Origin: Peptococcaceae bacterium BRH_c23
GTDB lineage: Bacteria; Bacillota_B; Desulfitobacteriia; Desulfitobacteriales; Desulfitobacteriaceae
Assembly: GCA_000961805.1 (NCBI GenBank)
Contig: LADV01000094.1
Coordinates: forward strand, 1-50,263
DNA: 50,263 nucleotides
Direction: 5' to 3'
The notes beneath the pieces were generated by a model, which saw only the letters and a program-made list of their open reading frames with translations, had not been told where the DNA came from and did not search any database. Each line of letters begins with the position of its first letter. The stretch's first letter is position 1. The translations under genes were made by a program, and so were the position numbers. This document shows positions 27,062 through 44,819 of the stretch, in pieces.

Positions 27062-27101
27062 AAATGATCTCGTGTTAAACTTTAAAGCTTTGGAGGTGCT
27101 T

Positions 27102-29256: not shown

Positions 29257-29394
29257 TATATTGAAAATTGGCTGGCCAAATTAATAATTAGGAGGTATTT
29301 CGAGAGTAAACATTAACCATGGGAGATTTTGTTTTGGAAGAATTGTAAATGGAGAATTGGAAAAAAAGGCAATTTAATTGGGAGGTGTAAGGGT

Positions 29395-30540
29395 ATGGAT
29401 GCTTCTACTAATGCAGCAGAGAAGGGTGGTGAGATTATTAGCACCAAGAAACAATTTGGTTTATCTGTTAACCCGATTACCTTTGCAATGGCACACCTAA
29501 CAATAATTCTGGTGGTTAGTCTTGTGGTTTGGAATGTGTTTGCGGATCCAAAGCAAGGTATATGGAAACTGTACCCACAGCCCTTTGATGCTGTCATGTT
29601 CTGGTTCATTTTAGAGGTCGTATTCCTGGCATTTAATGGTGAGCTATGGCCCTTTCATCGGCTAAAGCAACCTTTATCAGGATTGCTTACATTTATCACC
29701 GGCGCAGTTTTAGCTTTTCTAACAGTGGGAATACTCGTTTTCGGCATCGGAAGTTTTGAACCGGCTTTTAATCCAAGCGGAGCAGGTTGGACGGCAACCG
29801 GCATGATTGTCCTAATGGGTTTTTATTTTTTCGGTATCTTAGCAACAAATATGGGGCATTGGCCATGGGTGGATTTAGGGCTAAAGCAGCCATGGGTCGG
29901 GATTATTGAGTTCTTTGAAGGCTTTTTCCTGGCGTTTTTGGGTTATCTGGTCTTAATTTATCCGAGCGTAGCCAGTTGGTCACAGAGCGGAAAAGTGATT
30001 CTTCCCTTGGTCACAGCGGTTGGTTGGTTCTATTCAGTTATTGTCTCTTGGCTTACGACAGCTAATGCCTTAGATAACTGGCCGTGGAGCCGATTGGGTT
30101 CAAGAGCCAAAACTGCTCTGGCATCACTCTTTGGCAATTTTGTCATCGGTACAGGAATTTATTTCTTGTTCTTGGCTATGCTTAAGAATTTTCTGATTCC
30201 CGTTGAGGCGCAAAAATCTCTTGGAGTAGCCATTACAATGTGGCCGGCTCAATTAGGGGTTTGTATCTTGTTCTGGGTCCTAACGTGGTCGACAGTGTTT
30301 GACAATCAACCTCTAAATACTGTCTCGAAAAAGGTTATTAGAGTAGTAATTACGTACGGCCTGGGGGTGATAACATTTTTGGTTTATACCCGGTGGTTTG
30401 CGATTTCGATACTGCATGAAGCTGAGATCAGCAAAGGGTTCGGTGGAGATCCATTAACGTGGATAGATTTAATGATTTTAGTCATGTTGATTTATGCCGT
30501 ATATTTTGGTTCTTATGGCTTAATTAAAAAGAACAAATAA
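29395..30540 (+). CDS. Four-fold repeated integral membrane protein of unknown function
   Basis: 381 residues from ATG 29395 (GGGAGGTGTAAGGGT before it). About ten membrane helices. A motif recurs four times before a helix: GELWPFHRLKQP, GHWPWVDLGLKQP, DNWPWSRLGSR and DNQPLNTVSKK, spaced roughly 70-110 residues, suggesting internal duplication. I recognise no named family. It lies behind a sigma-54 promoter and 26 bases before butanediol dehydrogenase, so uptake of butanediol/acetoin, or a membrane partner of the redox system, are guesses. Confidence 0.8.
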   Translation: MDASTNAAEKGGEIISTKKQFGLSVNPITFAMAHLTIILVVSLVVWNVFADPKQGIWKLYPQPFDAVMFWFILEVVFLAFNGELWPFHRLKQPLSGLLTFITGAVLAFLTVGILVFGIGSFEPAFNPSGAGWTATGMIVLMGFYFFGILATNMGHWPWVDLGLKQPWVGIIEFFEGFFLAFLGYLVLIYPSVASWSQSGKVILPLVTAVGWFYSVIVSWLTTANALDNWPWSRLGSRAKTALASLFGNFVIGTGIYFLFLAMLKNFLIPVEAQKSLGVAITMWPAQLGVCILFWVLTWSTVFDNQPLNTVSKKVIRVVITYGLGVITFLVYTRWFAISILHEAEISKGFGGDPLTWIDLMILVMLIYAVYFGSYGLIKKNK

Positions 30541-30566: not shown

Positions 30567-31625
30567 ATGAAAGCAGCAGTGTGGTATGGAAGAAAAGATG
30601 TTCGCGTTGTAGATGTACCAGAGCCACCATCACCGGGTGAAGGGTGGGTAAAGGTTAAGGTGGAGTGGTGCGGGATCTGTGGTTCCGACCTCCATGAATA
30701 CTTGGCAGGTCCGATTTTCATTCCGGTCGCTGAACCAGATGCCCTCACGGGAAGTAAAGCACCAATTATTCTTGGACATGAATTTTCCGGAGAAGTGGTT
30801 GAAATTGGTCCAGGAGTTAAGAATGTTCAGGTGGGAGATCGGGTTGCACCAGATGCCTGCCAAGTGTGTTGGGAATGTTATCATTGTAAACGCATGAATT
30901 ATAGTATGTGTGAAAAGTTAGCGTTTACTGGGTTGATGACCGATGGTGCCTTTGCAGAATATGTCAATGTCCCAGCCTATACTATGTATAAAATTCCAGA
31001 TGATATGTCCTACGAAGTAGCAGCTGTCATCGAGCCGATAGCAGTTGGAATCCATGCTGTTCGACAGGCACCAGTTATTGAAGGAGACAAAGTTGTTGTC
31101 CTAGGGGCTGGAACAATTGGGCTCGCGACTTTACAGGCTGCCAAGGCAGCTGGAGCAAGTAGAGTCTATGTGATTGAAATGGCTAAGGCTAGAAAAGAAT
31201 ATGCTCTAAATATGGGGGCTACGGCAGTCTTCGATCCGAGAGAAGTGGACGTTGTGGCCAAGATTAAGGAACTTACCAATGGATTAGGAGCAGATATTAC
31301 TTTCGAATGTGTCGGGAATGAGAAGACAGCACCACTGGCCATACAATTGGCACGAAAAAGCGGTAAAGTTATCATGGTGGGTATCTTTGAACGTGAAAGT
31401 TCGTTTAACTTTTTTGAGGTAACCGCTAATGAAAAACACATTATAGGATCCTTGGCCTATAATGGAGAGTTTGCTACAGCGATTGATTTGTTGAATGATG
31501 GGCGGCTTTCTGCAGAACCCATGATTACAGGAAAAATTAAACTCGAAGATATTATTGAAAGGGGATTTGAAGAGCTGGTAAACCGGAAAGAGGCAAATAT
31601 TAAAATACTGGTTTCTCCGCGCTAA
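30567..31625 (+). CDS. Zinc-dependent alcohol dehydrogenase, probable (R,R)-butanediol dehydrogenase
   Basis: 352 residues, AAAGGAGAGATGATTA before the ATG. MDR family: catalytic zinc Cys in CGICGSDLHEY near 37, GHEFSGEV near 71, structural zinc cysteines CQVCWECYHC...C near 99-115, and the nucleotide loop VLGAGTIGLATLQAAKAAGA near 178. The extended region DLHEYLAGPIFIP is typical of butanediol dehydrogenases. It would oxidise 2,3-butanediol to acetoin, the substrate of the E1/E2 enzymes encoded downstream. Confidence 0.85.
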   Translation: MKAAVWYGRKDVRVVDVPEPPSPGEGWVKVKVEWCGICGSDLHEYLAGPIFIPVAEPDALTGSKAPIILGHEFSGEVVEIGPGVKNVQVGDRVAPDACQVCWECYHCKRMNYSMCEKLAFTGLMTDGAFAEYVNVPAYTMYKIPDDMSYEVAAVIEPIAVGIHAVRQAPVIEGDKVVVLGAGTIGLATLQAAKAAGASRVYVIEMAKARKEYALNMGATAVFDPREVDVVAKIKELTNGLGADITFECVGNEKTAPLAIQLARKSGKVIMVGIFERESSFNFFEVTANEKHIIGSLAYNGEFATAIDLLNDGRLSAEPMITGKIKLEDIIERGFEELVNRKEANIKILVSPR

Positions 31626-31852: not shown

Positions 31853-31870
31853 CTGGCACAGGGTTTGCTT
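31853..31870 (+). promoter_or_regulatory. Sigma-54 promoter of the aco operon
   Basis: CTGGCAC-AGGGT-TTGCTT, a full -24/-12 match (GG 31855, GC 31867). Confidence 0.88.
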
Positions 31871-32089: not shown

Positions 32090-33052
32090 GTGGCGCTTAA
32101 TAAAGAACAAATGCTTGACTTATATCGTCAAATGCGTACGATTCGTGAATTTGAAGAGACCGTGGCTAAATTTTTTTCACAAGGTCAAATTCCTGGTTTT
32201 GTTCACCTGTATATCGGTGAAGAGGCTGTGGCAACCGGAGTCTGTGCGAACTTAGAAAAACAGGATTATATCGCAAGTACTCATCGGGGGCATGGGCATG
32301 GAATTGCCCGCGGAGCATCGATTAACAAAATGATGGCTGAGATTTTTGGCAAGATCGACGGAGAATGTAAAGGAAAAGGCGGTTCCATGCATATTGCCGA
32401 TGTGGAATTGGGATTTCTTGGCGCGAATGGGATTGTGGGTGCAGGTATGCCCTTAGCAACCGGGGCGGCTTTTGCCGCTAAATATATGAAGACCAATGGA
32501 GTCGCGATCTGCTTTTTCGGGGACGCAGCATCAAACCGGGGGACGTTCCATGAGTCGTTGAACATGGCGAGTATTCAGAAGTTGCCAGTGATTTTCGTCA
32601 ACGAGAATAATATGTATGGTATTTCGATGAGCCAGGAAAGGCATCAGAACATTACAGACATTGCAGACCGTGCAGGGTCCTATGGAATGCCGAGTATGGT
32701 CGTTGATGGCAACGACGTTATGGCTGTCTATGAAGCAGCAGAAGAAGCTGTGAAGCGTGCTCGTGCCGGTGGAGGCCCCGTTTTGATTGAATGTAAAACT
32801 TATCGGCATCACGGCCATTTTGAAGGGGATCCCTGCGTATACCGATCCGATGAAGAAGTGAACGCCTGGAAAGCGAAGGATCCTTTGCCACGGTTCACGA
32901 ACCGATTGCAAGAAATGAATATGGCTACAGAGGCGGAAATTAATCAAATCGATACTGAGGTTAAAAAAGTTATTGCTGATGCGGTTGAATTTGCTCAGAA
33001 TAGTCCTGTGCCCACTCTGGATGAACTAACGAGCGATGTATACTGCGCCTAA
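32090..33052 (+). CDS. acoA: Acetoin dehydrogenase E1 alpha (TPP-dependent)
   Basis: 320 residues, GTG 32090 with GAAGAGGAG before it. E1 alpha landmarks: MRTIREFEE at the start, GHGHGIARGA near 70, and the TPP motif GDAASNRGTFHESLNMA near 145 ending in NNMYGIS. It decarboxylates acetoin (or a 2-oxo acid) and passes the acyl group to lipoyl-E2. Assignment to acetoin rather than pyruvate rests on AcoX, AcoR and butanediol dehydrogenase nearby. Confidence 0.88.
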   Translation: MALNKEQMLDLYRQMRTIREFEETVAKFFSQGQIPGFVHLYIGEEAVATGVCANLEKQDYIASTHRGHGHGIARGASINKMMAEIFGKIDGECKGKGGSMHIADVELGFLGANGIVGAGMPLATGAAFAAKYMKTNGVAICFFGDAASNRGTFHESLNMASIQKLPVIFVNENNMYGISMSQERHQNITDIADRAGSYGMPSMVVDGNDVMAVYEAAEEAVKRARAGGGPVLIECKTYRHHGHFEGDPCVYRSDEEVNAWKAKDPLPRFTNRLQEMNMATEAEINQIDTEVKKVIADAVEFAQNSPVPTLDELTSDVYCA

Positions 33053-33076
33053 GGAATTTGAAGGGGTGAGATTACT

Positions 33077-34048
33077 ATGGCAGAAATGACCTATTCCCAA
33101 GCGATTAATGAGGCACTCGAGGAAGAAATGCATAGGGATGAGAAAGTATATATCTTAGGAGAAGATGTTGGGGCATTTGGTGGGTGTTTTGGAGTAACGA
33201 CAGGGCTTCTTGAAAAATTTGGCGGCGAAAGAGTGTTGGATGCACCGATCTCGGAGACCGCTATTATGGGTTCAGCGGTAGGGGCTGCAGTCGCTGGCTT
33301 ACGCCCAGTTCCAGAAATCATGTTTGCCGACTTTGTAGGGGTCTGTCTAGATGAGCTGATAAACCAAGCAGCAAAGATGCACTATATGTTTGGTGGAAAG
33401 GCTAAGGTACCGCTGACGTTAAGGATGGCCTGCGGGGCCGGATTGGGTGCAGCGGCTCAACACTCTCAAAGCCTAGAGGCAATGATGTGTCATGTTCCAG
33501 GGCTTAAAGTAGTTATGCCGGCGACGGCAGCAGATGCTAAAGGTTTGTTGAAATCGGCCATCCGTGATGATAATCCGGTCGTATTCTTAGAGCATAAAGC
33601 CCTCTATGGGGTAATCGGGGAAGTCCCCGATGGGGAGTATATGATCCCACTTGGAAAGGCAGATATCAAGCGGGAAGGAAAAGATGTCACGATCTTAGCT
33701 TATTCTATGATGCTTCATAAAGCGCTAGGGTCGGCGGAAACCTTAGCTCTAGATGGAATCGAAGCAGAAGTGATTGATCCACGTACCCTTGTACCGTTTG
33801 ACAAGGAAACGTTGTATAAATCCATAGAAAAAACCGGGCGACTGGTTATTGTGCATGAAGCCGTCAAACAGGGAGGATTTGGGGGGGAAATCGCGGCAAT
33901 GGTCGCGGAAGAATGCTTTGATTTTCTCGATGCTCCCATTAAAAGGGTTGCGGCACCCTTTACTCCTATTCCTTTTGCAGCTAACTTGGAAGCGGCATAC
34001 ATTCCAGATGAGGCAAAAATTATCGCAGCGGTGAAATCCTTTTTCTAA
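33077..34048 (+). CDS. acoB: Acetoin dehydrogenase E1 beta
   Basis: 323 residues, AAGGGGTGAGATTACT before the ATG. Transketolase-like beta subunit: MTYSQAINEALEEEM, LGEDVGAFGGCFGVT near 27, ETAIMGSAVGAA near 60 and the C-terminal transketolase domain VIDPRTLVPFD near 236. It pairs with the E1 alpha 24 bases upstream. Confidence 0.9.
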   Translation: MAEMTYSQAINEALEEEMHRDEKVYILGEDVGAFGGCFGVTTGLLEKFGGERVLDAPISETAIMGSAVGAAVAGLRPVPEIMFADFVGVCLDELINQAAKMHYMFGGKAKVPLTLRMACGAGLGAAAQHSQSLEAMMCHVPGLKVVMPATAADAKGLLKSAIRDDNPVVFLEHKALYGVIGEVPDGEYMIPLGKADIKREGKDVTILAYSMMLHKALGSAETLALDGIEAEVIDPRTLVPFDKETLYKSIEKTGRLVIVHEAVKQGGFGGEIAAMVAEECFDFLDAPIKRVAAPFTPIPFAANLEAAYIPDEAKIIAAVKSFF

Positions 34049-34130: not shown

Positions 34131-35156
34131 ATGATTGCAGGAATTATTGCAAATCCCGCTTCAGGAAAAGATATCCGACGTTTGGTGGCTCACGCTACTG
34201 TCTTCGATAATCAGGAAAAAGTGAATTTGATCCGGAGAATCTTGCTTGGGCTTCAAGCGGCAAGGGTTAAAAGGGTCTGGTTTATGCCCGACTATTTTGG
34301 TTTTTTCGAGCGGGCTTTAGATGTCTTCTGCGGTGAGAATCAATTAACCATGGAGACAAAGCTCTTACCCATGCAGTGGAAGGCGAATCAAGAGGATTCG
34401 CAGTTGGCAGCAGCCAAAATGGTAGAATTAGGCGCTAGCTGCTTGATCACTCTGGGTGGTGACGGAACGAACCGGGTTGTAGCTAAAGGAGTCGGGGAGG
34501 TTCCGATCATGCCTGTTTCCACAGGAACCAATAATGTTTTCTCTGTTATGGTGGAAGGAACAATAGCGGGATTGGCAGCTGGTTTAGTTGCCACAGGTGT
34601 GGTTGAACAAGAGTTTTCTCTGATTCGGACCAAAAAGCTAATTATCTATATCAACGGTAAAGCGGTGGATATAGCCTTAATAGATGCTGTTGTGCTAGCT
34701 GAGCAGTTCATCGGTTCGCGGGCCATTTGGGACATGGGTAAGATCCGGCAGATTGTGGCTACCTGCGGCGAGCCCTTTCATATTGGTATTGCGGCAATCG
34801 TCGGGGCGCTGCATCCCATTAATAAGCGGGAAGCCAAGGGGATCAACTTAATCATCGCAGAAAGTAGCGAGCAAACGCGAGATCCAACTCAAGGCTCCTC
34901 AATCCAGGTAAAAGCCGCAGTAGGACCTGGCCTGATTCGATCGGTTCCAGTTCGTTCATACGAATTAATGAGCCCCGGACAGAAAGTAGTAGTACGCCAT
35001 GTCCCTTGTGTTATAGCGGTTGATGGAGAAAGGGAGATTTTGGTCGGCCCAAAAGATTGTGCCGAAGTAGAACTAGTGGCAACAGGACCGTATGTGGTCG
35101 ATGTCAAAAGCACCTTAAAACGTGCTGCAGAAAAAGGTTTATTCATAAATAGTTAA
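34131..35156 (+). CDS. acoX: AcoX, ATP-NAD kinase-like protein
   Basis: 341 residues, TAGGAGGGGAAGAA before ATG. NAD kinase fold with ITLGGDGTNR near 104 and PVSTGTNNVF near 125. AcoX proteins are found in acetoin clusters of Bacillus-type and proteobacterial genomes, and their biochemical role is still unclear. Its place between acoB and the E2 gene is strong support for the acetoin assignment. Confidence 0.88.
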   Translation: MIAGIIANPASGKDIRRLVAHATVFDNQEKVNLIRRILLGLQAARVKRVWFMPDYFGFFERALDVFCGENQLTMETKLLPMQWKANQEDSQLAAAKMVELGASCLITLGGDGTNRVVAKGVGEVPIMPVSTGTNNVFSVMVEGTIAGLAAGLVATGVVEQEFSLIRTKKLIIYINGKAVDIALIDAVVLAEQFIGSRAIWDMGKIRQIVATCGEPFHIGIAAIVGALHPINKREAKGINLIIAESSEQTRDPTQGSSIQVKAAVGPGLIRSVPVRSYELMSPGQKVVVRHVPCVIAVDGEREILVGPKDCAEVELVATGPYVVDVKSTLKRAAEKGLFINS

Positions 35157-35208: not shown

Positions 35209-36801
35209 ATGGCACATATTATGTTAATGCCAAAATTGGGCTTAACTATGAAAAAAGGAAAAATAGTTAGCTGGCTAAAAAACGAAGGGGAGACGGTTGC
35301 CCTGGGAGAAGCACTCTTAGAAGTGATGACGGAAAAAGTAAACATTAAAGTTGATTCACCTTATAGTGGAGTACTTTATAAGATTATTGGTGCTCCAGGT
35401 TCGAGTTACCCGATCTCCGTTCCGCTAGCTGTTTTGGCGGAAGAAGGGGAAGATTCCGCCTCTTTAGAAGGCTCTCTGGCTGAAGCTCTAAGTGTTTTGC
35501 AAGCGGCATTAGCCGGCGGGAGCGGTGACGCGGAGAAGAAAAAAGAGACAAAACCTATTAAACCCTTTGTGGTTTTTGCCGGTGCTGGCAAGGCATCCCC
35601 TCGTGCTGCCAAACTCGCTGATAAGGAAGGCGTTGATCTTGGATTAATTATTGGCAGCGGGGCAAATGGCAAGGTTGTTGAAGAGGATGTCTTAAATTAT
35701 ATAGCTCAAGTTAAAGGAGATAGAACCTCTGAACTGCGTCCAATTGATGCCCTGAGCATGCGGGGTGTCATTGCGGAGCGGATGTCTAAGAGTCGGAGAG
35801 AGGCTACCCATGTCACACTCATGGAAGAAATAGATTTGACCGCTCTGAAAGATGTGCGTGAGCAATTAAATGAGTCGGGTGGTGGGAAACGAGTCAAATT
35901 CTCCTATACGGATTTCTTAGTTAAGTTTACCGGACAGGCGTTATCAGAATTTCCGCTTGTGAACTCTTGGAGTACCGAGCAGGAAATCGAATTACCAAAA
36001 GCGGTCAATGTTGGGGTGGCCGTTGCTTTAGAAGAAGGACTTGTCGTTCCCAATCTAAAAAATGTTCCAATGCTTACCCTGGAACAGATTTCGGCTAAAA
36101 TTAAAGATCTAGCCACGCGAGCACGCAATTCTGAACTCAATCCGGAGGAGATCGAACAAGGGACCTTCACGATTACCAATCTGGGAGCATACGGAGTGGA
36201 AGGGTTTACACCCATTATTAATCGGCCAGAAACCGCAATTCTCGGGGTTGGGGCAATCAAACAGAAACCCATTATGGTCGAGGGACGTTTAGAAAACCGC
36301 CATTTGATGACGTTGAGCCTTTCCTTAGATCATCGAATCATCGATGGTTCACTTGCCGCAGAGTTTTTGGGTCGTCTTAAAGAAATGTTGGAAAATCCCT
36401 ATCCCTGGTTCCAGTTACAACCCCAAGTTATGGAAGACCTTGTCATTCAAACAGGTGGGAAAGAATCTCCACATGATCTATTGGAAGCGTTTTCTGGTGG
36501 GTTGGCCGAATTGAAAGAAGAAGCTCCGGAATTGGCGATTGGTTTCGAAAGCCTTATGGCGCCGGTCTTTTGCGAAGGTGAATTGGGGATCATGGAAAAA
36601 GAGTTAATGGCGGTGGCCATCGCCATTTATGGCAAATGTGAGTACTGTATTGCCGCTCATGTTTATAATGCTATGAATGCCGGAGCATCTGGTGATCAAG
36701 TGCTGGAGGCAGCTGGGGTCGCTGTTGCTTTTGGAGGCGGCCCGGCAATGGCATATACCGTAACAAAAGTTCGTGAATGCATCAAAGCTTTTGGCGGTTA
36801 A
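35209..36801 (+). CDS. acoC: E2 dihydrolipoamide acetyltransferase fused to an AhpD-like domain
   Basis: 530 residues, AGGAGGTAAAGGAAAA before ATG. Residues 1-78: lipoyl domain, lysine in MTEKVNI near 45. About 125-165: peripheral subunit-binding domain (ASPRAAKLADKEGVDLG). About 180-405: catalytic domain with DHRIIDG near 366. Then an extra about 110-residue carboxymuconolactone decarboxylase/AhpD-like domain with C477-E-Y-C480 and H484 (KCEYCIAAH), the CxxC...H pattern of AhpD, which in mycobacteria takes electrons from lipoyl-E2. Fused in cis it could oxidise dihydrolipoyl groups. No E3 gene lies in the window. Confidence 0.92.
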   Translation: MAHIMLMPKLGLTMKKGKIVSWLKNEGETVALGEALLEVMTEKVNIKVDSPYSGVLYKIIGAPGSSYPISVPLAVLAEEGEDSASLEGSLAEALSVLQAALAGGSGDAEKKKETKPIKPFVVFAGAGKASPRAAKLADKEGVDLGLIIGSGANGKVVEEDVLNYIAQVKGDRTSELRPIDALSMRGVIAERMSKSRREATHVTLMEEIDLTALKDVREQLNESGGGKRVKFSYTDFLVKFTGQALSEFPLVNSWSTEQEIELPKAVNVGVAVALEEGLVVPNLKNVPMLTLEQISAKIKDLATRARNSELNPEEIEQGTFTITNLGAYGVEGFTPIINRPETAILGVGAIKQKPIMVEGRLENRHLMTLSLSLDHRIIDGSLAAEFLGRLKEMLENPYPWFQLQPQVMEDLVIQTGGKESPHDLLEAFSGGLAELKEEAPELAIGFESLMAPVFCEGELGIMEKELMAVAIAIYGKCEYCIAAHVYNAMNAGASGDQVLEAAGVAVAFGGGPAMAYTVTKVRECIKAFGG

Positions 36802-36819
36802 AGAAAGCGGGGATAACCG

Positions 36820-38361
36820 ATGGTTGGGTCTTTTCACCCCACGTATCTTCTTGACCTCGGGAAAGCGGACTATAAACCGGTTTGGCAACTTCAGAAGAAT
36901 TTACAAAATCTCAGGATTGAAGGTCAGGTTGCGGATAGCTTTATCTTGGTTGAACACCCTCCCACAATCACGTTGGGGAAAGATAGTCTCAGTGAACATA
37001 TCTTGGTTGGTGAAGAATGGCTAGCTGCTCATGAATTCCAGGTTTTCCAGATTGAAAGGGGTGGAGATGTTACTTACCACGGTCCGGGCCAACTTGTAGG
37101 CTATCCGATCCTAGATCTCAATGCATACAATAAAGACGTCCATTTGTTGGTTTATAAATTAGAAGAAATGCTGATAAAAACGCTTTCTGCATTTGGAATC
37201 CAAGGGTCGCGACGTGTTGGGTTACCTGGAGTGTGGGTTGGGAAGAAGAAAATTGCCAGTATCGGATTAGGGGTAAATCATTGGGTGACAATTCACGGTT
37301 TTGCTCTTAATGTCAACCCGGATTTGTCTCAATTTAAGACCATCGTCCCTTGTGGTCTGCCTGGTGTGCAAATGACCTCGCTTGCCGAAGAACTGAAACG
37401 CTCGATTAGTATTTCCGAGGTCAAAAATAGGGTCATTGAAGAAATGTGTGCGCTTTTTCAATGGGAAATTCGTTCGCTATCCCGAAATGTGGAAATATTG
37501 TTGACTGCTGACGGCCTGGAAGCAAAGGCTTTTCGACCAAGTTGGTTAACGGTTCAGGCTCCTCCGGCGGGTGTGATGGAAGAAATGGAAGGGGTTTTGG
37601 CAAAAGGGCGCTTGCATACGGTCTGTGAGGGAGCATGTTGTCCTAATGCGGGTGAATGCTTTGCTTTAGGTACAGCCACGTTTATGATTCTTGGTGACGT
37701 ATGCACCAGGGGATGCCGTTTCTGCGCCGTGAGCAAAGGAATCCCCTGTCCTCCCGATTCGGCAGAAGCGGAAGCGGTGGCGGAAACCGTAAAAACCCTT
37801 AACCTTAAACACGCAGTCATCACATCAGTGACTCGGGATGACTTACCAGACGGTGGAGCAGGGGAGTTTGTACGAGTTGTTAGAGCTTTGCAAAAAAAGA
37901 CCCCAAAAACAAGTATTGAACTGTTGATCCCTGATTTTGCGGGATCAGAACAAGCGCTGGCAACGATTGTTGCCGTTAAGCCAGAGGTCATCGGTCACAA
38001 TATCGAAACGGTACCCGATCTTTATCCTCACGTACAGCCAGGGGCAAATTATGAGCGCTCGTTGAAGGTCCTGGCAGATGTTAAAAGACTGGATCCTGCG
38101 ATCAAAACTAAAAGTGGTTTGATGGTTGGCCTTGGAGAGAAAACACAGGAAGTTTGTCGTGTTATGGAGGACTTGCGCAAGGCAGGGTGTGATTACCTGA
38201 CCATCGGCCAATACTTACAGCCCACGCCGAAGCACCTGCCAATAATGGGATACATTTCTCCGAATATGTTTGCTTGGTACAGGGAACAGGCCCTGGAGCG
38301 TGGCTTTGAAAAAGTGGAATGTGGCCCATTAGTCCGCAGTTCCTATCATGCGCAACCATAA
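36820..38361 (+). CDS. LipB-LipA fusion: octanoyltransferase plus lipoyl synthase
   Basis: 513 residues. Residues 1-225 are LipB: RGGDVTYHGPGQLVGYP near 78, GSRRVGLPGVWVG near 129, and the catalytic Cys178 in IVPCGLPG with Lys in KKIAS. Residues 235-513 are LipA: auxiliary cluster C269/C274/C280 (CEGACCPNAGEC), radical SAM C295/C299/C302 (CTRGCRFC), and the final RSSYHA supplying the conserved Ser. These are normally two proteins. The fusion should make protein-bound lipoate de novo from octanoyl-ACP. Located between E2 and the first GcvH-like gene. Confidence 0.95.
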   Translation: MVGSFHPTYLLDLGKADYKPVWQLQKNLQNLRIEGQVADSFILVEHPPTITLGKDSLSEHILVGEEWLAAHEFQVFQIERGGDVTYHGPGQLVGYPILDLNAYNKDVHLLVYKLEEMLIKTLSAFGIQGSRRVGLPGVWVGKKKIASIGLGVNHWVTIHGFALNVNPDLSQFKTIVPCGLPGVQMTSLAEELKRSISISEVKNRVIEEMCALFQWEIRSLSRNVEILLTADGLEAKAFRPSWLTVQAPPAGVMEEMEGVLAKGRLHTVCEGACCPNAGECFALGTATFMILGDVCTRGCRFCAVSKGIPCPPDSAEAEAVAETVKTLNLKHAVITSVTRDDLPDGGAGEFVRVVRALQKKTPKTSIELLIPDFAGSEQALATIVAVKPEVIGHNIETVPDLYPHVQPGANYERSLKVLADVKRLDPAIKTKSGLMVGLGEKTQEVCRVMEDLRKAGCDYLTIGQYLQPTPKHLPIMGYISPNMFAWYREQALERGFEKVECGPLVRSSYHAQP

Positions 38362-38375
38362 TGGAGGTGGAAAGT

Positions 38376-38810
38376 ATGGCAATTATTGAAGGATATAATT
38401 TACCGGATGACCTCTACTATACGGAAGACCATGCCTGGGTGAAAGTGGAAGGAAATTTAGTCAGAGTAGGAATGAATGATTTTGCCCAGAAATTGGCGGG
38501 AGATATCTCGTTTGTTAAACTACCCAAAGTCGGAAAAGACGTAACAATAGGTAAACTTCTCAGCTCTATGCAGTCTGGAAAGTGGGCGGGACGTATCGAG
38601 GTACCTGTAACAGGTAAGATCGTGGAGGTCAATAAAGAGTTATTGTATGAACCGCAAAAGATGAACCAGGATTGTTATGGAAATGGTTGGATTGCGTTGA
38701 TTGAGCCTAACAATTTCCAGGAGGACTTGGGCAAACTCATGGATGGTGCGAAAGCCGCGGAGTGGCTTAAGGGAGAAATTACCCGGAATGTTCCGGGTAA
38801 GGAGGGGTAG
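38376..38810 (+). CDS. GcvH-like lipoyl carrier protein 1
   Basis: 144 residues from ATG 38376 (GGAGGTGGAAAGT before it). GcvH fold with YYTEDHAWVKVEGN near 14 and the lipoylation loop MQSGKWAGR, Lys69 aligning with the Lys of the ESVKA loop of glycine cleavage H proteins. The SGKWxGR context is not the usual H-protein sequence. There are no gcvP or gcvT genes here; the neighbours are lipBA and an FAD oxidoreductase three bases downstream. Probably a dedicated redox carrier, comparable to LbpA, rather than a glycine cleavage protein. Confidence 0.88.
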   Translation: MAIIEGYNLPDDLYYTEDHAWVKVEGNLVRVGMNDFAQKLAGDISFVKLPKVGKDVTIGKLLSSMQSGKWAGRIEVPVTGKIVEVNKELLYEPQKMNQDCYGNGWIALIEPNNFQEDLGKLMDGAKAAEWLKGEITRNVPGKEG

Positions 38811-38812
38811 TC

Positions 38813-40321
38813 ATGGAACAAGCTTTGCAAAAAATATGTGGGAAAAGGGTCACAACCGACCCTTTTGAATGTGCCCCATATGCTAAAGATGTAGCCTATA
38901 TCCCCGGTATTCTTGTCCATTTACTGACAAATCCCGTACCGAAAGCCGTGGTTCAGCCCATCTCGGCAGAAGAAATCTCTAGTTTGATCAAGTGGGCAAA
39001 ACAAGGCAAAATACCAGTTACCGTCCGGGGTGGAGGCTCTACCGCCTATTTCAATTCCGTTCCGATGCGAAGTGGTTTAGTGATTGATACGAATCGCCTC
39101 CAAGGGTTTTCCAAAATTGAGCTAAGCCAGGGGAGCAATAGAAAAATGGTCTGGGTCAAAGCAGGGATGACTTGGAAAGACCTGGATGACGGATTGCGAC
39201 AGCAGGGGTGTGCGGTTTGCTCTAGCCCTAGCAGTGCCCCCTCCGCTACTATCGGAGGATGGGTTTCCATGGGGGGGTTAGGTATCGGCTCTGTCCCTTA
39301 TGGTCCAGTTCACGATCAAGTTATGGCCATTCGGGGGGTGACGGCCGCTGGGGAAATAGTGGAACTCTCACGACCTGACAAAGGTCCTGTAAAGATACAG
39401 GGATCTAAGGAATTAGGCTTACAATTTAATGATATGATGGGCACTGAAGGAACCCGGGGAATTATTACGGAGATTAAGTTGTTGGTGCGTGACGTTCCAG
39501 AAAAAGAGGAACACCTGCTAGCAGTATTTAATAGCGAAACCGATACTGGCTCGATGATGTCCTGGCTAGGCGGAGAAAATTTTATTTCTCTGTACAATGT
39601 TCATTTTAGTAGTCCAGAATTGATCATGACGCTCCAGGAAGCTGGATACGCTCATGAGATTTCTCAGGGAAAGTACAGCCTGGAAATTGATCTTGAGGGC
39701 AAGCGTAACGAAGTGGATAAAGCGGTTGCTCGCATTAGAAACCATGTGCAAGTCCTAGGCGGGACTTTATTGCCTGATGAGGTAGGAGAAGAGGAATGGG
39801 CCGATCGGTTTAAATCCCTTCGGCTTAAACAAACACTTCCTTCCTTACAAGCGGCTGAAATTACACTCCCTGTCAGTAATTTTGCGGCCTTTTATGAGGG
39901 GCTAAGTAAATTGGGCCAAAAGAGTAAGACCCTGTGCGTTACTTATGCCCATCTCGTGTCTTCTGAAATGGCCTTAGTCATGGTTCTTTATCCCTCAGAT
40001 GAACTTAACACGATCCGTTATATTGCCGATCTTAGTTTTATCAGCCAGATTTACAAGTTGGGACAAAGTTTTGGTGGTAAACCTTACGTCATTGGGCTTT
40101 GGAATACTCCCTATTTGGGAAAAGTATATGACCGTGGTGAGAGAGAACGTCGGCGTCAGCGCAAACAAGCGCTAGATCCCCAAGCGCTACTCAATCCCGG
40201 AAAGGGTTACAATCCCCCGTCCATTATTCTGAACAGCTATGTCTTTGGGTTTGGTATGATCATGATTGGTTTCTTTCGACCTTTGGTCCTTAAAATCCTC
40301 AAAGGAGGAAAAGGACGATGA
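38813..40321 (+). CDS. FAD-linked oxidoreductase (GlcD-like) with C-terminal membrane tail
   Basis: 502 residues, AAGGAGGGGTAGTC before ATG. FAD-binding-4 (PCMH) domain: VRGGGSTAYFNS near 74 and SSPSSAPSATIGGWVSMGGLGIGS near 140 (two adjacent pieces of the FAD loop), then an FAD-oxidase C-terminal domain with DPQALLNPGKG near 460. Unusually it ends in a hydrophobic stretch (about residues 469-494) followed by KGGKGR, suggesting a membrane anchor. Stop overlaps the Fe-S gene start. The pair resembles GlcD/GlcF or LldEF-like flavin/Fe-S units; the donor could be a GcvH-like carrier. Confidence 0.85.
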   Translation: MEQALQKICGKRVTTDPFECAPYAKDVAYIPGILVHLLTNPVPKAVVQPISAEEISSLIKWAKQGKIPVTVRGGGSTAYFNSVPMRSGLVIDTNRLQGFSKIELSQGSNRKMVWVKAGMTWKDLDDGLRQQGCAVCSSPSSAPSATIGGWVSMGGLGIGSVPYGPVHDQVMAIRGVTAAGEIVELSRPDKGPVKIQGSKELGLQFNDMMGTEGTRGIITEIKLLVRDVPEKEEHLLAVFNSETDTGSMMSWLGGENFISLYNVHFSSPELIMTLQEAGYAHEISQGKYSLEIDLEGKRNEVDKAVARIRNHVQVLGGTLLPDEVGEEEWADRFKSLRLKQTLPSLQAAEITLPVSNFAAFYEGLSKLGQKSKTLCVTYAHLVSSEMALVMVLYPSDELNTIRYIADLSFISQIYKLGQSFGGKPYVIGLWNTPYLGKVYDRGERERRRQRKQALDPQALLNPGKGYNPPSIILNSYVFGFGMIMIGFFRPLVLKILKGGKGR

Positions 40322-41487
40322 AAACTATTGAAGAACTTCGGGAGCAAATAGCCAAAACCAGTTATATCTGTGGAAGCTGCGGCAGTTGTCGAAGTGTCTG
40401 TCCTGTTTACCGAGAAATTGGTTGGGAATCCTCGGCACCCCGCAGAAAACTTGCTTTGGCCAAAGAGGTATTTCTAAAGAAAAAAGAGCAACAAGTCACG
40501 GACCAATATGCCCAGCGTTTGCAGGAGTGTACGCTGTGTGGTAAATGTGCCGAAATATGTGCAGCTGGGATTAAAACACGTGAGATCTGGTTGAATCTGC
40601 GTGAAGAATTAAGGGCTCGGGGAATGGAGCATCCCAACTTAACCCAGATGGTTCTGCAAATTAAATCGACGCACAATATTAGTACGTTCTCTAATGAAGC
40701 CCGCCTTGACTGGGTGGAAGATTTAGATGAAGTTGAAGTAGAAGTCTCAAAAGCCGGAAGTGAGGTCGCCTACTTTGTAGGATGCGTGTCTTCCTTCTAT
40801 CCGATGTCGGTTGGCATCTCCCAAAGCATTGTAAGCCTATTGGACCGAGCAAACGTTAATTATACCGTTCTGGGAAGTGAGGAATGGTGCTGTGGATTCC
40901 CCCTCATCGCTTCGGGAAACACTCAACAAGTCACTGAATTAGCAAAACACAATGTGAAAAAGGTACGCGCTCTTGGGGTCAAAACCTTAATAACGGGCTG
41001 TGCCTCCTGTTATCATACCTGGACACACGAATATCCGACGATCCTTAAGGGGAATCTTGGCTTTGAGGTACTTCATGCTACACAGTATCTGGCTGGATTA
41101 ATCCGTAAAAGACAATTAGTGCCTGGCAATTTAGATGTAACCGTCACTTATCATGACCCCTGCGATTTGGGTCGTAACAGCGGGATCTATGACGAGCCCC
41201 GAGAACTTCTACAGGCCATGGAGGGGCTTAACTTTGTAGAAATGCCTCATCACCGGGAAATGGCCGACTGTTGCGGTGGTGGAGGGAATCTAGCTGCCGT
41301 AGATAAAGATTTAAGTCAAGCTATTGCTGTGAAACGAGTACGTGAGGCTGTGGCAACCGGGGCAACTATTTTAACCTCTGCGTGCCAGCAATGTGTACAG
41401 ACTTTGCAAATGGCGGCAAGACAGGAAAAATTACCGCTTGAGGTCTTAGACGTAACTGAATTGCTGTGGCGATCCTTGGAAGAATAG
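40318..41487 (+). CDS. Fe-S protein with two CCG domains (GlpC/HdrD-like)
   Basis: 389 residues, ATG 40318 overlapping the previous stop, AAAGGAGG before it. Two [4Fe-4S] ferredoxin motifs at the start (CGSCGSCRSVCP near 20; CTLCGKCAEIC near 72) and two cysteine-rich CCG domains: C...EWCCGFPL near 190 and C...ADCCGGGGNL near 318. CCG domains bind the noncubane clusters of heterodisulfide reductase, which cleaves disulfides. Encoded with a flavoprotein and flanked by two lipoyl carriers, a role in lipoamide dithiol/disulfide exchange is plausible but inferred. Confidence 0.88.
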   Translation: MKTIEELREQIAKTSYICGSCGSCRSVCPVYREIGWESSAPRRKLALAKEVFLKKKEQQVTDQYAQRLQECTLCGKCAEICAAGIKTREIWLNLREELRARGMEHPNLTQMVLQIKSTHNISTFSNEARLDWVEDLDEVEVEVSKAGSEVAYFVGCVSSFYPMSVGISQSIVSLLDRANVNYTVLGSEEWCCGFPLIASGNTQQVTELAKHNVKKVRALGVKTLITGCASCYHTWTHEYPTILKGNLGFEVLHATQYLAGLIRKRQLVPGNLDVTVTYHDPCDLGRNSGIYDEPRELLQAMEGLNFVEMPHHREMADCCGGGGNLAAVDKDLSQAIAVKRVREAVATGATILTSACQQCVQTLQMAARQEKLPLEVLDVTELLWRSLEE

Positions 41488-41563
41488 TCTATTCACGTTC
41501 TTGAAATAGAAGAGGATCTTGGTTATTTGCACGAGAGCGATAACAATAAAGGAGGGTGAGGGT

Positions 41564-41986
41564 ATGAAGGTCGGAGAGTGGCATTTCCCAGAAGAACTAC
41601 TCTATGATGAACACCATCAGTGGCTCAAAAGAGAAGGAAACGATATAACCATAGGCTTAACCGATTACGGGCAATACATCAGGGGAGATATTTTGTTCTT
41701 GAGTTTGCCGGTATCCGGTACTCAGGTGAAGGCAGGAGAGGCCGTAGGTTCTCTGGAAACGGGAAAATGGGTCGGGCGTTTTTATGCTCCCCAGGCAGGG
41801 GAAATCTGTGCCGTGAACAAGGAGGTTCTGGGAAACACACGCTTGATTAATCAAGATCCCTATGGGCACGGTTGGCTCTTTAAAATAAAAACTCATTCCT
41901 CTGAAGGGCAAATGCTTATGACCGTAGAGCAACTCAAGGAATGGTTAGACCTGGAGTTAGAGAGGGAGAAGGCCTGTGATGTCTAA
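41564..41986 (+). CDS. GcvH-like lipoyl carrier protein 2
   Basis: 140 residues from ATG 41564 (GGAGGGTGAGGGT before it). Same family as the gene at 38376 but clearly diverged: LLYDEHHQWLKREGN near 12 and the loop LETGKWVGR with Lys68. Both copies share the GKWxGR context. It overlaps the radical SAM gene downstream by eight bases, linking carrier and modifying enzymes. Possibly the substrate for LipS-type sulfur insertion, or a second carrier in an electron relay. Confidence 0.87.
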   Translation: MKVGEWHFPEELLYDEHHQWLKREGNDITIGLTDYGQYIRGDILFLSLPVSGTQVKAGEAVGSLETGKWVGRFYAPQAGEICAVNKEVLGNTRLINQDPYGHGWLFKIKTHSSEGQMLMTVEQLKEWLDLELEREKACDV

Positions 41987-43085
41987 CACTCACGCTTATC
42001 GTTCCCAGGGTGAACTTACCCAGGAGATCGAGGATATGGGTTTAGAAAGTCCGGATGTTATCCAAACGAGTCTTGCGGCCGCGATGACACTCGGTTTAAA
42101 GGGCGGTATTTTTTATCGCAATGCCCGGCTCACCTGCTTAAACTTGCTCCTGACTTATCAAGAGGGCTGTCAGGGACGCTGCGGTTATTGTGGTTTGGAA
42201 CAAAAACGTTCAGAAAAAACCAAAGGGACAACGTTCATCCGAGTTGCTTGGCCCACCTACTCCTTTGATCTCATTCTCGAACGGGCGAAACAATATCAAA
42301 ACTCTTTGAAACGAATTTGCCTATCCATGATTACCCATAAGAGAGCCTTTGAGGATTCGTTAAAGCTTGTATCCCGTTTACACAGTGAAGTCAATTTGCC
42401 GATTAGTATTCTTTGTGCCCCGACGCTGATCCACAAGACGGAAGACCTGCAAAAACTCAAAGAGGCTGGTGCCGATCAACTTGGGGTGTCGATTGACACA
42501 GCTACCGCAGAAATCTTCCAAAAATACCGAGGAAAAGGTGTACGGGGACCTCATCGCTGGGATCATTACTGGGAGATTTTAAGAAAGGGGGTTGATGTTT
42601 TTGGACAAGGCCAGGTCAGTGTTCATCTTATTGTCGGCCTGGGAGAAAGCGAACAAGAGATGGTCATGGCTTTTCAGCAAGTACACGATTTAGGCGCGGT
42701 GGGTCATCTGTTTTCGTTCTATCCCGAACCGGGGAGTGCTCTGGCTGAGAAAGCGGCACCCTCCATTGGTCAATACCGCCGTATGCAATTAGCCCGCTAT
42801 GTAATTATGAATGATTTTGCGAGTGCCAAAACTATGTGCTTTAATAGTTCTAAACAAGTTTATGATTTTGGGATGGATGTCGAACCTTTTGTCGCTTCCG
42901 GCCAACCTTTTCGTACGTCCGGCTGTCCCGGGCATGATGGAGAAACTGCCTGTAATCGACCCTATGGCAATGAACGCCCCGGTATTACCCTGGCCAATTA
43001 TCCTTTTGTTCCTAATATAGGAGATGTGGAGCAGATAAGGGGTGAACTTTACGCCGGGCTCATGGAGGGTGTTGAACAATTGTGA
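41979..43085 (+). CDS. Radical SAM protein (LipS1-like candidate)
   Basis: 368 residues from ATG 41979 (GTG 41976 also in frame). Radical SAM cysteines C64, C68, C71 (CQGRCGYC), a biotin-synthase-like core, and a C-terminal block with further cysteines (TSGCPGHDGETACNRPYGN) that could hold an auxiliary cluster, as sulfur-inserting enzymes need. With the next gene it forms an overlapping pair between a GcvH-like protein and a methyltransferase. From memory, LipS1/LipS2 pairs of radical SAM enzymes make lipoyl groups in archaea and sHdr organisms; assignment is by context. Confidence 0.7.
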   Translation: MSNTHAYRSQGELTQEIEDMGLESPDVIQTSLAAAMTLGLKGGIFYRNARLTCLNLLLTYQEGCQGRCGYCGLEQKRSEKTKGTTFIRVAWPTYSFDLILERAKQYQNSLKRICLSMITHKRAFEDSLKLVSRLHSEVNLPISILCAPTLIHKTEDLQKLKEAGADQLGVSIDTATAEIFQKYRGKGVRGPHRWDHYWEILRKGVDVFGQGQVSVHLIVGLGESEQEMVMAFQQVHDLGAVGHLFSFYPEPGSALAEKAAPSIGQYRRMQLARYVIMNDFASAKTMCFNSSKQVYDFGMDVEPFVASGQPFRTSGCPGHDGETACNRPYGNERPGITLANYPFVPNIGDVEQIRGELYAGLMEGVEQL

Positions 43086-44107
43086 ATTCACTAAAGTGCT
43101 CCGAACTTCGCCAAAAGAATGAAGAGAAGATGATCGGGAAGACAATTATTGAAGGTTGGACGGAATTTGATCAAAGTGCAAATTTACCTAATCTGCTAAA
43201 AGAAGCCTGGAACCTGCGCCGGAAAACCTTCCCTGATTTCATCCACTTTGCAGTTCCCGGCGGAAGGCACTATGACGGTAAGAACTTTAGCAATTCAGGA
43301 CGATTCCTCAATGTAAGCATCACGGGAGCCTCCTGTGCTCTTCAATGTGACCATTGTCAGGGAAAAATGCTGAAGGGAATGATTCCAGCTCCAACACCGG
43401 AAAAACTACAGGAACTGGGAACCAACCTGCGGAAAAAAGGAGTTACAGGGCTTCTTATAACTGGAGGATGTAATCATAAGGGCCAGGTCCCCCTTAAGCC
43501 TTTTTTGTCGGCTTTAACTTATCTAAAATCCCTGAACTTCACGATTCATGTGCATACCGGCTTAGCAGATAAGGAAACAGCTGTTGGGTTGAAACAGGCT
43601 GGAGTTGATAAAGTTTTTCTGGATATGATCGCTGATGCCGCTACAATTCGTAAGGTTTATCATCTTGACCGTAAGCCTAGTGCCTTTAGAGATGCTTTAG
43701 AAATTCTGCTAGCTGAGGATTTAGATGTCGTCCCGCATGTGGTTCTCGGCTTAAACTACGGGAAAATCATGGGAGAAGAAAACCTTATTCAAACGTTGAG
43801 TGATTATCTCTTGGAAACGTTGGTGTTGGTTGCTTTACGAGCTGTGCCTGGTACTCTGATGGGCGGAGTTATTGGACCGGATCCGGCTGAGATCATCAGG
43901 ATAACCGCTCAAACTCGTCTCTTGAATCCCTTGCTTAAAATTAGTTTTGGTTGTGCTCGACCCTATACTCAAAAGGCTTGGTTGGAGAGAGGGCTCATAG
44001 CGGCGGGAGTTAATACGTTGGCCTTTCCACTTGATGAAACCATAGACTTCGCTTTAACGAATGGTTTGAAACCTGTCATGAGTGAGATGTGTTGTGGTGG
44101 GCTGTAG
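43082..44107 (+). CDS. Radical SAM protein (LipS2-like candidate)
   Basis: 341 residues, GTG 43082 overlapping the previous stop with GGAGGGT upstream (ATG 43130 is an alternative). Radical SAM cysteines C85, C89, C92 (CALQCDHC), TIM-barrel pieces LLITGGCNHKGQ near 120 and HVVLGLNYGK near 219, CARP near 298, and a cysteine pair at the end (SEMCCGGL). Two overlapping radical SAM genes in a lipoyl-carrier cluster suggest split lipoyl synthase, each inserting one sulfur. Another carrier modification is possible, since a LipA domain is present in the same operon. Confidence 0.7.
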   Translation: MNSLKCSELRQKNEEKMIGKTIIEGWTEFDQSANLPNLLKEAWNLRRKTFPDFIHFAVPGGRHYDGKNFSNSGRFLNVSITGASCALQCDHCQGKMLKGMIPAPTPEKLQELGTNLRKKGVTGLLITGGCNHKGQVPLKPFLSALTYLKSLNFTIHVHTGLADKETAVGLKQAGVDKVFLDMIADAATIRKVYHLDRKPSAFRDALEILLAEDLDVVPHVVLGLNYGKIMGEENLIQTLSDYLLETLVLVALRAVPGTLMGGVIGPDPAEIIRITAQTRLLNPLLKISFGCARPYTQKAWLERGLIAAGVNTLAFPLDETIDFALTNGLKPVMSEMCCGGL

Positions 44108-44144
44108 GGGAAAAGCGGAAAGAACTAAAGGGGGAGTAATTATA

Positions 44145-44819
44145 ATGCCGATTGAACTATTTGATCAGATAGCTGAAGATTATGACAATTGGTACGAAAC
44201 AGACATAGGACGAGTAGCCGATCAAGTAGAGCGGGACCTGGCCGTTCAGTTCTTTCAACCATCAGGTCCCATGTTATTAGAAATTGGGTGTGGAACCGGA
44301 CAATACACCACTAAGCTAGCGGAACAGGGGTATAATATTACGGCTGTTGATATATCTGAAAAAATGATGGCACGAGCGCGAGAAAAAATTGTGAACTTAG
44401 GATATCAGGTTAAGTGGCTCAATGCGGATATCACTCAAATTATAGATCAACTTGAGCAATATCATAGTATTCTTTCGATGAGTGCTTTCGAGTTTATTCC
44501 AAATCCGGAGGAAATTTTAGCTAGATTATTTGAGCATATAGAGCCCAAAGGATGTCTGGTGATTGGAGTGATTGCGGGAGAATCTCCCTGGAGCGAGTTC
44601 TATGGTAGGAAAGCTAATACGAAACCTGAATCCGTTTTTGCCCATGCACGGTTTTACACGGAATCCGAAATTCGTCAATGGAAGGTAGGCGGACGGCTTA
44701 AAATTGGCAAAGCACTTTATTTTCCGCCTGAGGTGTCTTCGGTAGAACGAGCTTTAACAATGGAAAAGCAAAAAAATACGAACCCTAGTTTTATGGTCGC
44801 CAAGTGGGTAAAAGAATGA
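44145..44819 (+). CDS. Class I SAM-dependent methyltransferase
   Basis: 224 residues from ATG 44145 (GGGGGAGTAATTATA before it). SAM-binding motif LEIGCGTGQYTTKL near 45 and the acidic end of strand two in ITAVDISEKMMARA near 68. UbiE/small-molecule methyltransferase class. Last gene of the long operon starting at the aco promoter, 37 bases after the second radical SAM gene; a terminator follows. Substrate unknown. Confidence 0.85.
   Translation: MPIELFDQIAEDYDNWYETDIGRVADQVERDLAVQFFQPSGPMLLEIGCGTGQYTTKLAEQGYNITAVDISEKMMARAREKIVNLGYQVKWLNADITQIIDQLEQYHSILSMSAFEFIPNPEEILARLFEHIEPKGCLVIGVIAGESPWSEFYGRKANTKPESVFAHARFYTESEIRQWKVGGRLKIGKALYFPPEVSSVERALTMEKQKNTNPSFMVAKWVKE

Follow-up and report, generated by a model that had tools for sequence, protein, structure and literature searches.

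What are two small proteins resembling GcvH, the H protein of glycine cleavage, doing in an acetoin-type operon that also encodes a flavoprotein and an iron-sulfur protein with CCG-type cluster sites? The question is raised by eight genes at positions 35209-44107 of contig LADV01000094.1 from Peptococcaceae bacterium BRH_c23, a stretch of 50,263 nucleotides that was analysed whole and is called the window below. Lipoic acid is familiar chiefly as an arm within large dehydrogenase complexes and, since 2018, also from the LbpA proteins of sulfur oxidation. An original prediction, made from the letters alone, had proposed that dihydrolipoyl groups here hand their electrons to GcvH-like carriers and then to a membrane-tailed FAD/Fe-S unit. 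The carriers, lipoate enzymes and flavin/iron-sulfur pair of this operon look like an electron route of which a related form was known before only from sulfur oxidizers. With slightly better than even confidence, we explain the locus as an operon for the oxidation of acetoin and 2,3-butanediol under AcoR/sigma-54 control, belonging to a Desulfosporosinus-like bacterium and enlarged by a dedicated lipoyl redox module in which electrons would run from E2 to the H proteins, the CCG protein, the FAD protein and the membrane.

The genes, their order, the promoter sites, the family placements, the residues lost or kept and the recurrent linkage of H and CCG genes are all read directly from the sequence. 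All eight genes are present at their predicted positions, tightly spaced or overlapping as first described (intergenic gaps of -11 to +76 bp); the operon begins further upstream, with E1alpha, E1beta and AcoX (32090-35156) at its head. The closest named relatives among the matches listed belong to Desulfosporosinus, with the FAD protein 95% identical to that of D. burensis and H1 92% to that of D. orientis. In what follows, L numbers denote loci, G numbers genomes and P numbers listed FAD homologues. The operon comprises:

32090..33052 (+): E1alpha of an acetoin/pyruvate-type dehydrogenase (TIGR03182, named pyruvate dehydrogenase, 398.4 bits, cut-off 393.85)
33077..34048 (+): E1beta (NF006667, 405.3 bits, over cut-off)
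34131..35156 (+): AcoX-like, NAD-kinase-like protein (PF01513)
35209..36801 (+): E2 acyltransferase with lipoyl, E3-binding, catalytic and C-terminal CMD/AhpD domains (PF00364, PF02817, PF00198, PF02627)
36820..38361 (+): LipB-LipA fusion (TIGR00214 and TIGR00510, above cut-off)
38376..38810 (+): H1, lipoyl carrier of K-W type (LbpA side), SGKWAGR (PF01597)
38813..40321 (+): FAD protein with D-lactate dehydrogenase (D-LDH)/GlcD fold and a C-terminal hydrophobic helix (PF01565, PF02913)
40318..41487 (+): CCG iron-sulfur protein, EtfD/HdrB-like, with two CCG sites and two CxxCxxCxxxC motifs (18 cysteines)
41564..41986 (+): H2, lipoyl carrier of K-W type, TGKWVGR (PF01597)
41976..43085 (+): LipS2-like radical SAM enzyme, CQGRCGYC (PF04055; NF053743, 229.6 bits, cut-off 270)
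43082..44107 (+): LipS1-like radical SAM enzyme, CALQCDHC (PF04055, 28.3 bits, cut-off 29.5; NF053742, 206.8 bits, cut-off 230)

Motif and tree both place H1 and H2 among the small lipoyl carriers of the LbpA side (K-W) and not among the glycine-cleavage H proteins. Around the lipoyl-lysine, 24/24 aligned proteins share the K, the W and, two residues further on, the G. H1 and H2 have neither the ES[VT]K motif nor the GcvP/T neighbours of GcvH, and they score 105.7 and 103.0 bits against the GcvH model TIGR00527, below its cut-off of 115.85; the broader subfamily model NF002270 accepts both (130.3 and 119.7 versus 117 bits). In a tree of 109 sequences (69 K-W and 40 of 77 GcvH, sampled; quick search without bootstrap), a single branch parts K-W proteins from GcvH with an SH-aLRT of 96, or of 90 when the motif columns are removed. 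H1 and H2 both fall on the K-W (LbpA) side, as separate lineages with no sign of a recent copy. The LbpA of locus L049, which reads by eye as a genuine sHdr locus (rhodanese, DsrE-like protein, Hdr-like subunits, LbpA and LipS1-LplAB-LipT-LipS2), falls on this side as well and has both an N- and a C-terminal cysteine. Two such conserved cysteines are given as the LbpA hallmark, some archaeal LbpA excepted, in PMC6067878. Carriers of the window's motif type have the N-terminal cysteine in 0/71 and the C-terminal one in 7/71 cases; for the GKWxGP/A type the figures are 15/21 and 14/21. In 22/22 genomes carrying the FAD gene, GcvP is encoded separately and has an H gene of its own no more than 200 bp away; a role in glycine cleavage is therefore rejected for H1 and H2. 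The two lipoyl carriers without glycine decarboxylase of the original prediction are thus distinct from GcvH.

Its flavin/iron-sulfur pair can likewise be made more precise. In the CCG protein, 17 of the 18 cysteines are invariant in 33/33 sequences compared and the last is kept in 32/33. Both CCG sites are intact (residues 156/191/192/228/231 and 282/318/319/356/359) and form two complete C-x31-39-CC-x35-36-CxxC sites, a spacing that we take to be that of HdrB-type sites and with which the HdrB alignment agrees; the remaining motifs are two of ferredoxin type. The AlphaFold model (pLDDT 93) finds its nearest fold in EtfD (9ojn, TM 0.84 by query), then in LutA and HdrB, and the top NCBIfam match is TfrB, at 186.9 bits with a cut-off of 385. 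The FAD protein (model pLDDT 88) has the VAO/D-LDH fold (8jde, TM 0.79 by query, probability 1.00). It carries neither HxGDGNxH nor EHGxG, the motifs of GlcD and D-LDH: the AHAGDGNLH of D-LDH is AHLVSSEMA in the window, and the Glu-His of GEHGVG is Pro-Tyr. Given these lost metal and substrate residues, we reject a role as hydroxyacid dehydrogenase. Among the 120 homologues listed, HxGDGN and EHGxG each occur in 0/102 of P0121-P0222, a set that includes fragments without the region (for example, P0142 and P0219), and in 16/16 and 15/16, respectively, of P0225-P0240; P0223 has only EHGxG and P0224 neither motif. A conserved G[LF]WN stands in place of the lost motif in the nearest relatives. The predicted C-terminal helix (residues 475-497) is hydrophobic, with a 19-residue mean of 1.8 in close relatives and weaker values in most of the distant ones. 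When plasmids were searched by tblastn with the FAD protein, none of the 20 matches listed, out of 360, exceeded 26.4% identity.

Do such carriers keep company with CCG proteins elsewhere? A linkage scan was based on the best 80 loci as a sample, with 39 K-W and 52 other H proteins classed by motif residues; three of the latter are odd frames of L037 that have no aligned lysine. A CCG gene lies within 4 kb of 26/39 K-W H genes versus 1/52 of the other H genes (Fisher p 4e-12, kinship ignored). Eight of these 26 are the LbpA pairs of L022, L027, L046 and L073, beside large CCG genes. In Desulfobacterota, an H gene is found within about 1.5 kb of a CCG/HdrB gene in 22 of the 30 best loci, with a multihaem cytochrome homologue in 9, one of these at 22% only. 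The 13 best stand-alone FAD genes (E < 1e-70; 398 genomes of one phylum) have an adjacent CCG gene in 13/13 cases; an H gene adjoins 11 of them (4.4 kb), lies 2.6 kb from the twelfth and 14 kb from the thirteenth, together with AhpD and LipS genes. In the G391 family, the FAD protein has a match at 1e-40 in 21/45 genomes; in six of these the identity is 82-93%.

Gene order is equally persistent. Starting from a butanediol dehydrogenase-like gene (BDH) upstream, the order BDH-E1a-E1b-AcoX-E2AhpD-LipBA-H1-FAD-CCG-H2-LipS2 is kept in 6/6 close relatives (L183-L188), with a small open reading frame (ORF) between BDH and E1a in L183-L186; LipS1 is seen in L185 and L188 and lies beyond the stretch examined in L183, L184, L186 and L187. 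Genomes at about 40% identity keep the order from E1a to LipS1 (L117, L118) or from AcoX to LipS1 (L001). The H module accompanies E1/E2 genes in L001 (E2 only in view), L117-L120, L122 and L191 and, in Desulfobacterota, in L004 and L232. In L232 the E1beta gene immediately precedes H, and L004 reads E1a-E1b-E2-LipB-BDH-like-Lpd-LipA-cytochrome-H-CCG, the cytochrome being assigned by position and by eye. The module also varies in its partners: L125 and L126 hold FAD-CCG-H-LplAB-LipT-LipS2-LipS1 cassettes without acetoin genes, and G395 has HdrABC where the window has FAD-CCG (E1a-E1b-AcoX-E2-AhpD-H-HdrC-HdrB-HdrA). In the Thorarchaeal loci L002 and L009, a K-W H gene lies near FAD and CCG genes. 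A link of these carriers to CCG genes is thus found in several phyla, and in Bacillota and Desulfobacterota they are linked to genes for dehydrogenases of the acetoin/pyruvate type as well. Their neighbours are conserved and do not vary at random, an outcome that would have refuted the original prediction.

K-W H genes are also seen near the lactate racemase gene larA in L021 (by Pfam), L245 (by similarity) and L012 (by eye), possibly a lactate branch of the carrier idea.

The dehydrogenase to which the module is attached has the composition of an aco cluster, with E1a, E1b, E2, AcoX and an AcoR-type regulator side by side. We use the label 'acetoin' because of AcoX, the AcoR-type regulator and the BDH-like gene nearby. 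The extra dithiol domain that had been noticed in the acyltransferase is a C-terminal CMD/AhpD domain holding an AhpD-type E-x11-C-x2-C-x3-H, with these residues in 18/18 copies found; the E-C-C-H arrangement is presumably that of M. tuberculosis AhpD. Depending on the lineage, AhpD is either part of E2 or encoded by its own gene next to E2 or H.

The gene inventory first given for the locus named the eight genes correctly, left the two radical SAM enzymes under a generic label, and overlooked both the LplAB, LipT and LplA genes upstream and the sigma-54 sites that they have in common with the operon. The two enzymes resemble LipS2 and LipS1, which together make up a lipoyl synthase: these are their best matches, and each has a CxxxCxxC motif. 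The exact sigma-54 (-24/-12) pattern TGGCAYRNNNNTTGC, which we take to be the consensus, has five matches in the 50 kb versus 0.09 expected, and 0/100 shuffles reach five. Around the operon lie:

22850..23158 (-): DUF6506 small protein, behind its own sigma-54 site (PF20116, 121.5 bits)
23251-23265 (-): sigma-54 site before the DUF6506 gene, exact match
23573..23587 (+): sigma-54 site before LplAB-LipT, exact match
23771..24832 (+): LplAB-like lipoate-protein ligase (NF053751, 158.3 bits, cut-off 550; PF21948, weak PF10437)
24808..25920 (+): LipT-like FAD oxidoreductase of the geranylgeranyl reductase superfamily (TIGR02032, over cut-off)
25954..27018 (-): LplA2, second LplA-type ligase (PF21948, 104 bits)
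27046..27060 (-): sigma-54 site before LplA2, exact match
27072..29075 (+): AcoR/DhaR-type sigma-54 activator (NF008485, 410.6 bits, cut-off 551)
29240-29254: sigma-54 site before the membrane protein gene at 29329, exact match
29329..30540 (+): membrane protein without Pfam or NCBIfam match
30567..31625 (+): zinc-type 2,3-butanediol dehydrogenase-like protein, BDH (PF08240, PF00107; probable substrate from context)
31854..31868 (+): sigma-54 site 222 bp before E1alpha, exact match
44082..44819 (+): S-adenosylmethionine-dependent methyltransferase, an occasional FAD-CCG neighbour that recurs in other loci

The LplAB, LipT-like and LplA genes share exact sigma-54 promoter sites with the operon, as one regulon. 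Among relatives, a site precedes E1alpha in L185-L188, is found about 460 bp upstream, at the small ORF, in L183 and L184, and precedes LplA2 in L185 as well. No site was found in L001 and L117-L119, so sigma-54 control is not general. The geranylgeranyl-reductase-like FAD protein at 25 kb is called LipT-like because its homologues immediately precede LipS2-LipS1 in L001, L117 and L118. Linkage of LipS1/LipS2-like genes to LplAB/LipT genes is observed, and LplA2 homologues lie near H in L010, L012, L020, L028, L120, L122, L127 and L191. The name LipT and the sLpl(AB)-LipT-LipS1/S2 route come from Tanabe et al. (PMC10332631), who also report canonical genes linked to lipS1/S2 in several Sporomusa. 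Two lipoyl routes thus appear to be encoded in the window, LipB-LipA and LplAB-LipT-LipS1/S2. Elsewhere, the LplAB ligase of L117 (4896-6494) carries a DUF116 domain, with ligases of similar length in L118, L125, L126 and L292, and in L121 (4767-6254) an H protein is apparently fused in frame to LplAB. DUF6506 look-alikes are seen by eye in other aco clusters (L285, L292), and homologues of the methyltransferase follow CCG in L189 and L190 and LipBA in L284 and L285.

From these elements we infer substrate, lipoylation, docking, direction and acceptor as follows. Cleavage of acetoin would leave the lipoyl group of E2 in its dihydrolipoyl form, and the electrons would pass, perhaps via the AhpD dithiol bridging E2 and H, to the lipoyl group of H. 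H1 and H2 would most likely be lipoylated by their own LplAB-LipT-LipS2-LipS1 route, and LipB-LipA may serve E2. H would then dock on the CCG protein, whose CCG-type [4Fe-4S] sites would perform dithiol/disulfide chemistry. From there the electrons would reach the membrane, probably menaquinone, by way of the FAD subunit, which has ceased to be a hydroxyacid dehydrogenase. That H is a redox partner of the CCG protein we regard as quite probable. CCG proteins elsewhere handle disulfides and dithiols, and dithiol/disulfide exchange between H and CCG is supported by the manner in which K-W carriers track CCG proteins across unlike electron outlets. Since the flavin subunit is without a hydroxyacid site, electrons would most simply enter from dihydrolipoyl-H and exit at the membrane; we would put the chances of a flow towards FAD and quinone at about even.

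The same genes might run the other way, the FAD-CCG pair charging lipoyl-H with electrons drawn from quinol or a reduced substrate, and an E3 encoded in trans passing them to NAD. This is the direction proposed for LbpA (PMC6067878) and for LarG of Pelobacter (PMC3543383), an E3 is present in 20/22 of the genomes, and H stands beside lactate racemase in L021 and L245, the FAD/CCG fusion of L021 having kept both GHAGDGNLH and EHGIG. The window FAD protein, however, has lost its hydroxyacid site, so that no organic donor is apparent, and electron transfer from quinol to lipoamide would be uphill (lipoamide at -0.29 V in PMC6067878, set against menaquinone). We regard reverse flow as unlikely. 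A somewhat smaller chance falls to an assembly role, in which H1 and H2 would act as an octanoyl/lipoyl relay for lipoate assembly and FAD-CCG would feed electrons to LipS1/LipS2. Bacillus subtilis GcvH is such a relay protein for E2 lipoylation; the cluster encodes two lipoyl routes, and H lies near LplAB, LplA2, LipT, LipS1 and LipS2 in many loci. Yet L003 (20 kb), L189 (7 kb), and L241-L243 and L247-L249 (2.1-3.4 kb) show H-CCG pairs with neither LipS nor LipA in view, and LipS1/S2 occur without a GlcD-like FAD gene in view in L016, L049 and L080; moreover, a reductant has already been proposed, namely LipT (PMC10332631).

Finally, the carriers might bind sulfur as in sHdr-LbpA, the system oxidizing sulfane sulfur. 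The K-W placement of H1 and H2 would fit, as would the C-terminal cysteine of 7/71 window-type carriers, with H2 itself ending in KACDV. But that cysteine is absent from 64/71 and the N-terminal one from 71/71, and rhodanese, TusA and DsrE were not noticed when the window ORFs were inspected by eye. A search confined to sHdrB1, with the query taken from L049, gave at best 50.6 bits in 22 related genomes, versus 1163 and 446 for controls. With no close sHdrB1 homologue in these 22 relatives, we reject membership in the sHdr system and hold sulfur oxidation by this locus to be highly improbable.

Several observations weigh against a dedicated module that takes electrons from an acetoin complex. 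NCBIfam names both E1alpha and E1beta pyruvate dehydrogenase, over cut-off, and the acetoin E2 model NF011457 gives the window E2 76.2 of 307 bits. The LipS1, LipS2 and LplAB assignments all score under their NCBIfam cut-offs (206.8/230, 229.6/270 and 158.3/550). In the linkage scan, 13/39 K-W H genes have no CCG gene within 4 kb, some of these at contig ends. G405 has FAD-CCG-methyltransferase and no K-W H among its three PF01597 matches. In the AcoX tree, the genomes closest to the window and G416 are G348 and G184. Both retain E2-AhpD-LipBA with no H or FAD gene in view, and neither is among the 56/398 genomes with a FAD match at 1e-30, so the module is dispensable. (A CCG-like ORF, at 30%, lies at the edge of L284.) H is found in 0/16 fused FAD-CCG loci within 3.7-4.4 kb, and Desulfitobacterium-type FAD-CCG pairs (L128, L129, L192, L193) have no H in 16-19.5 kb, so the link to H holds for only some members of this FAD-CCG family. 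The four latter loci place FAD-CCG beside a distant LipS2-like radical SAM gene and, by eye, DsrE-like and carbamate kinase genes.

The remaining objections concern E3. The original prediction had let electrons leave rather than (or besides) through E3 and NAD, and no E3/AcoL was indeed found in the window by tblastn with the Lpd of L004. On the other hand, E2 retains its E3-binding domain, an above-cut-off Lpd is encoded elsewhere in 20/22 genomes carrying the FAD gene (G050 has no Lpd over cut-off and G159 only a contig-edge fragment), the Desulfobacteraceae cluster L004 has both Lpd and H-CCG, and in L123 and L124 an Lpd-like flavoprotein (28-29%) immediately precedes FAD. The idea that these genomes have no E3 at all is ruled out. 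We also surveyed 32 AcoX matches in 398 genomes, keeping 24 clusters; G374, G213, G332, G310 and G164 were dropped for want of E1/E2, and G144, G174 and G053 as short contigs, G144 running 1.8 kb past E2 with neither E3 nor H. G115 was scored as having H though its AcoX and E2-FAD-CCG lie on two contigs. E3 is present in 0/8 clusters with H plus FAD-CCG or HdrBC versus 10/16 without H (Fisher p 0.004 one-sided, 0.006 two-sided), a contrast that shrinks to 3 independent pairs with a median p of 0.5, and no power, when corrected for kinship. It is suggestive of E3 and H modules being mutually exclusive within aco clusters, with L004 as a counter-example. Because Lpd lies elsewhere in 20/22 genomes, we read the module as a way out for electrons that exists alongside E3 or in its stead, and not as a proven replacement.

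How does the locus relate to systems already described? The likeness to sHdr-LbpA (PMC6067878, PMC10332631) that the original prediction drew is borne out by the K-W carriers, by LplAB-LipT-LipS1-LipS2-like genes and by a CCG neighbour. The redox enzymes are indeed different: the window has a GlcD-fold FAD protein and an EtfD-like CCG protein tied to an acetoin-type dehydrogenase, its carrier branch is without the LbpA cysteine pair, and its relatives are without a close sHdrB1. The Group III Hdr-like/LbpA/EtfBA clusters of Actinobacteria and Firmicutes (PMC6067878) similarly set several lipoyl carriers beside CCG proteins; they have EtfBA and Hdr-like genes where the window has the GlcD-fold FAD gene, and most such carriers in the present data keep the cysteines. 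LarG of Pelobacter carbinolicus, a GcvH-like lipoyl carrier, was proposed as a cytoplasmic disulfide electron carrier in 2012 (PMC3543383); unlike the carriers of the window, it was placed beside an Act complex and E3, and the P. carbinolicus aco genes include acoL (E3). GlcDF/D-lactate dehydrogenase and TfrAB-type enzymes share the FAD plus CCG architecture, whereas the window FAD protein has lost the active-site His/Glu and lipoyl carriers are added. EtfD is the closest solved fold of the CCG protein, but the first CCG of 9ojn is ETCTG where the window has EEWCCG, and EtfAB was not noticed in the window on inspection by eye. The combination of genes was not recognised in the open-access literature (titles and abstract beginnings) beyond the sHdr and Pelobacter work.

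Other features of the window include a formate dehydrogenase alpha gene (15327-18035), read as two ORFs divided by an in-frame TGA at 16410-16412. The HAPTVAGL that follows is, we assume, typical of a selenocysteine site, and because of it the protein is probably a selenoprotein. A thiamin pyrophosphate riboswitch at 22544-22644 (-), with 82.7 bits, lies upstream of thiamin genes (by eye) at 18289-22217; the P. carbinolicus aco cluster also contains thiamin genes (PMC3543383). A molybdenum/tungsten cofactor riboswitch at 46777-46907 (+) stands at the start of a MoaA-like ORF, and FdhD, a formate-dehydrogenase sulfurtransferase, is encoded at 45834.

More broadly, and with slightly less than even confidence, we propose that anaerobic bacteria and archaea use a general class of diffusible dithiol carriers, namely the K-W proteins without sulfur-binding cysteines, to move electrons for enzymes of the CCG/HdrB type in settings other than sulfur oxidation. 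Within acetoin dehydrogenase such carriers would substitute for E3, the outlets being interchangeable (FAD-CCG, HdrABC, or multihaem cytochrome plus CCG) and electrons leaving at the level of quinone or ferredoxin and not as NADH. If this is true, 2-oxoacid-type complexes would have a route to bypass NAD. It could also help to account for LipS1/S2 outside sulfur oxidizers, as 58% of the bacteria with LipS1/S2 are without sHdr (computed from the 42% in PMC10332631). With a widespread, cysteine-poor LbpA-type branch tied to CCG enzymes, lipoyl proteins would then become a general currency for electrons among anaerobes.

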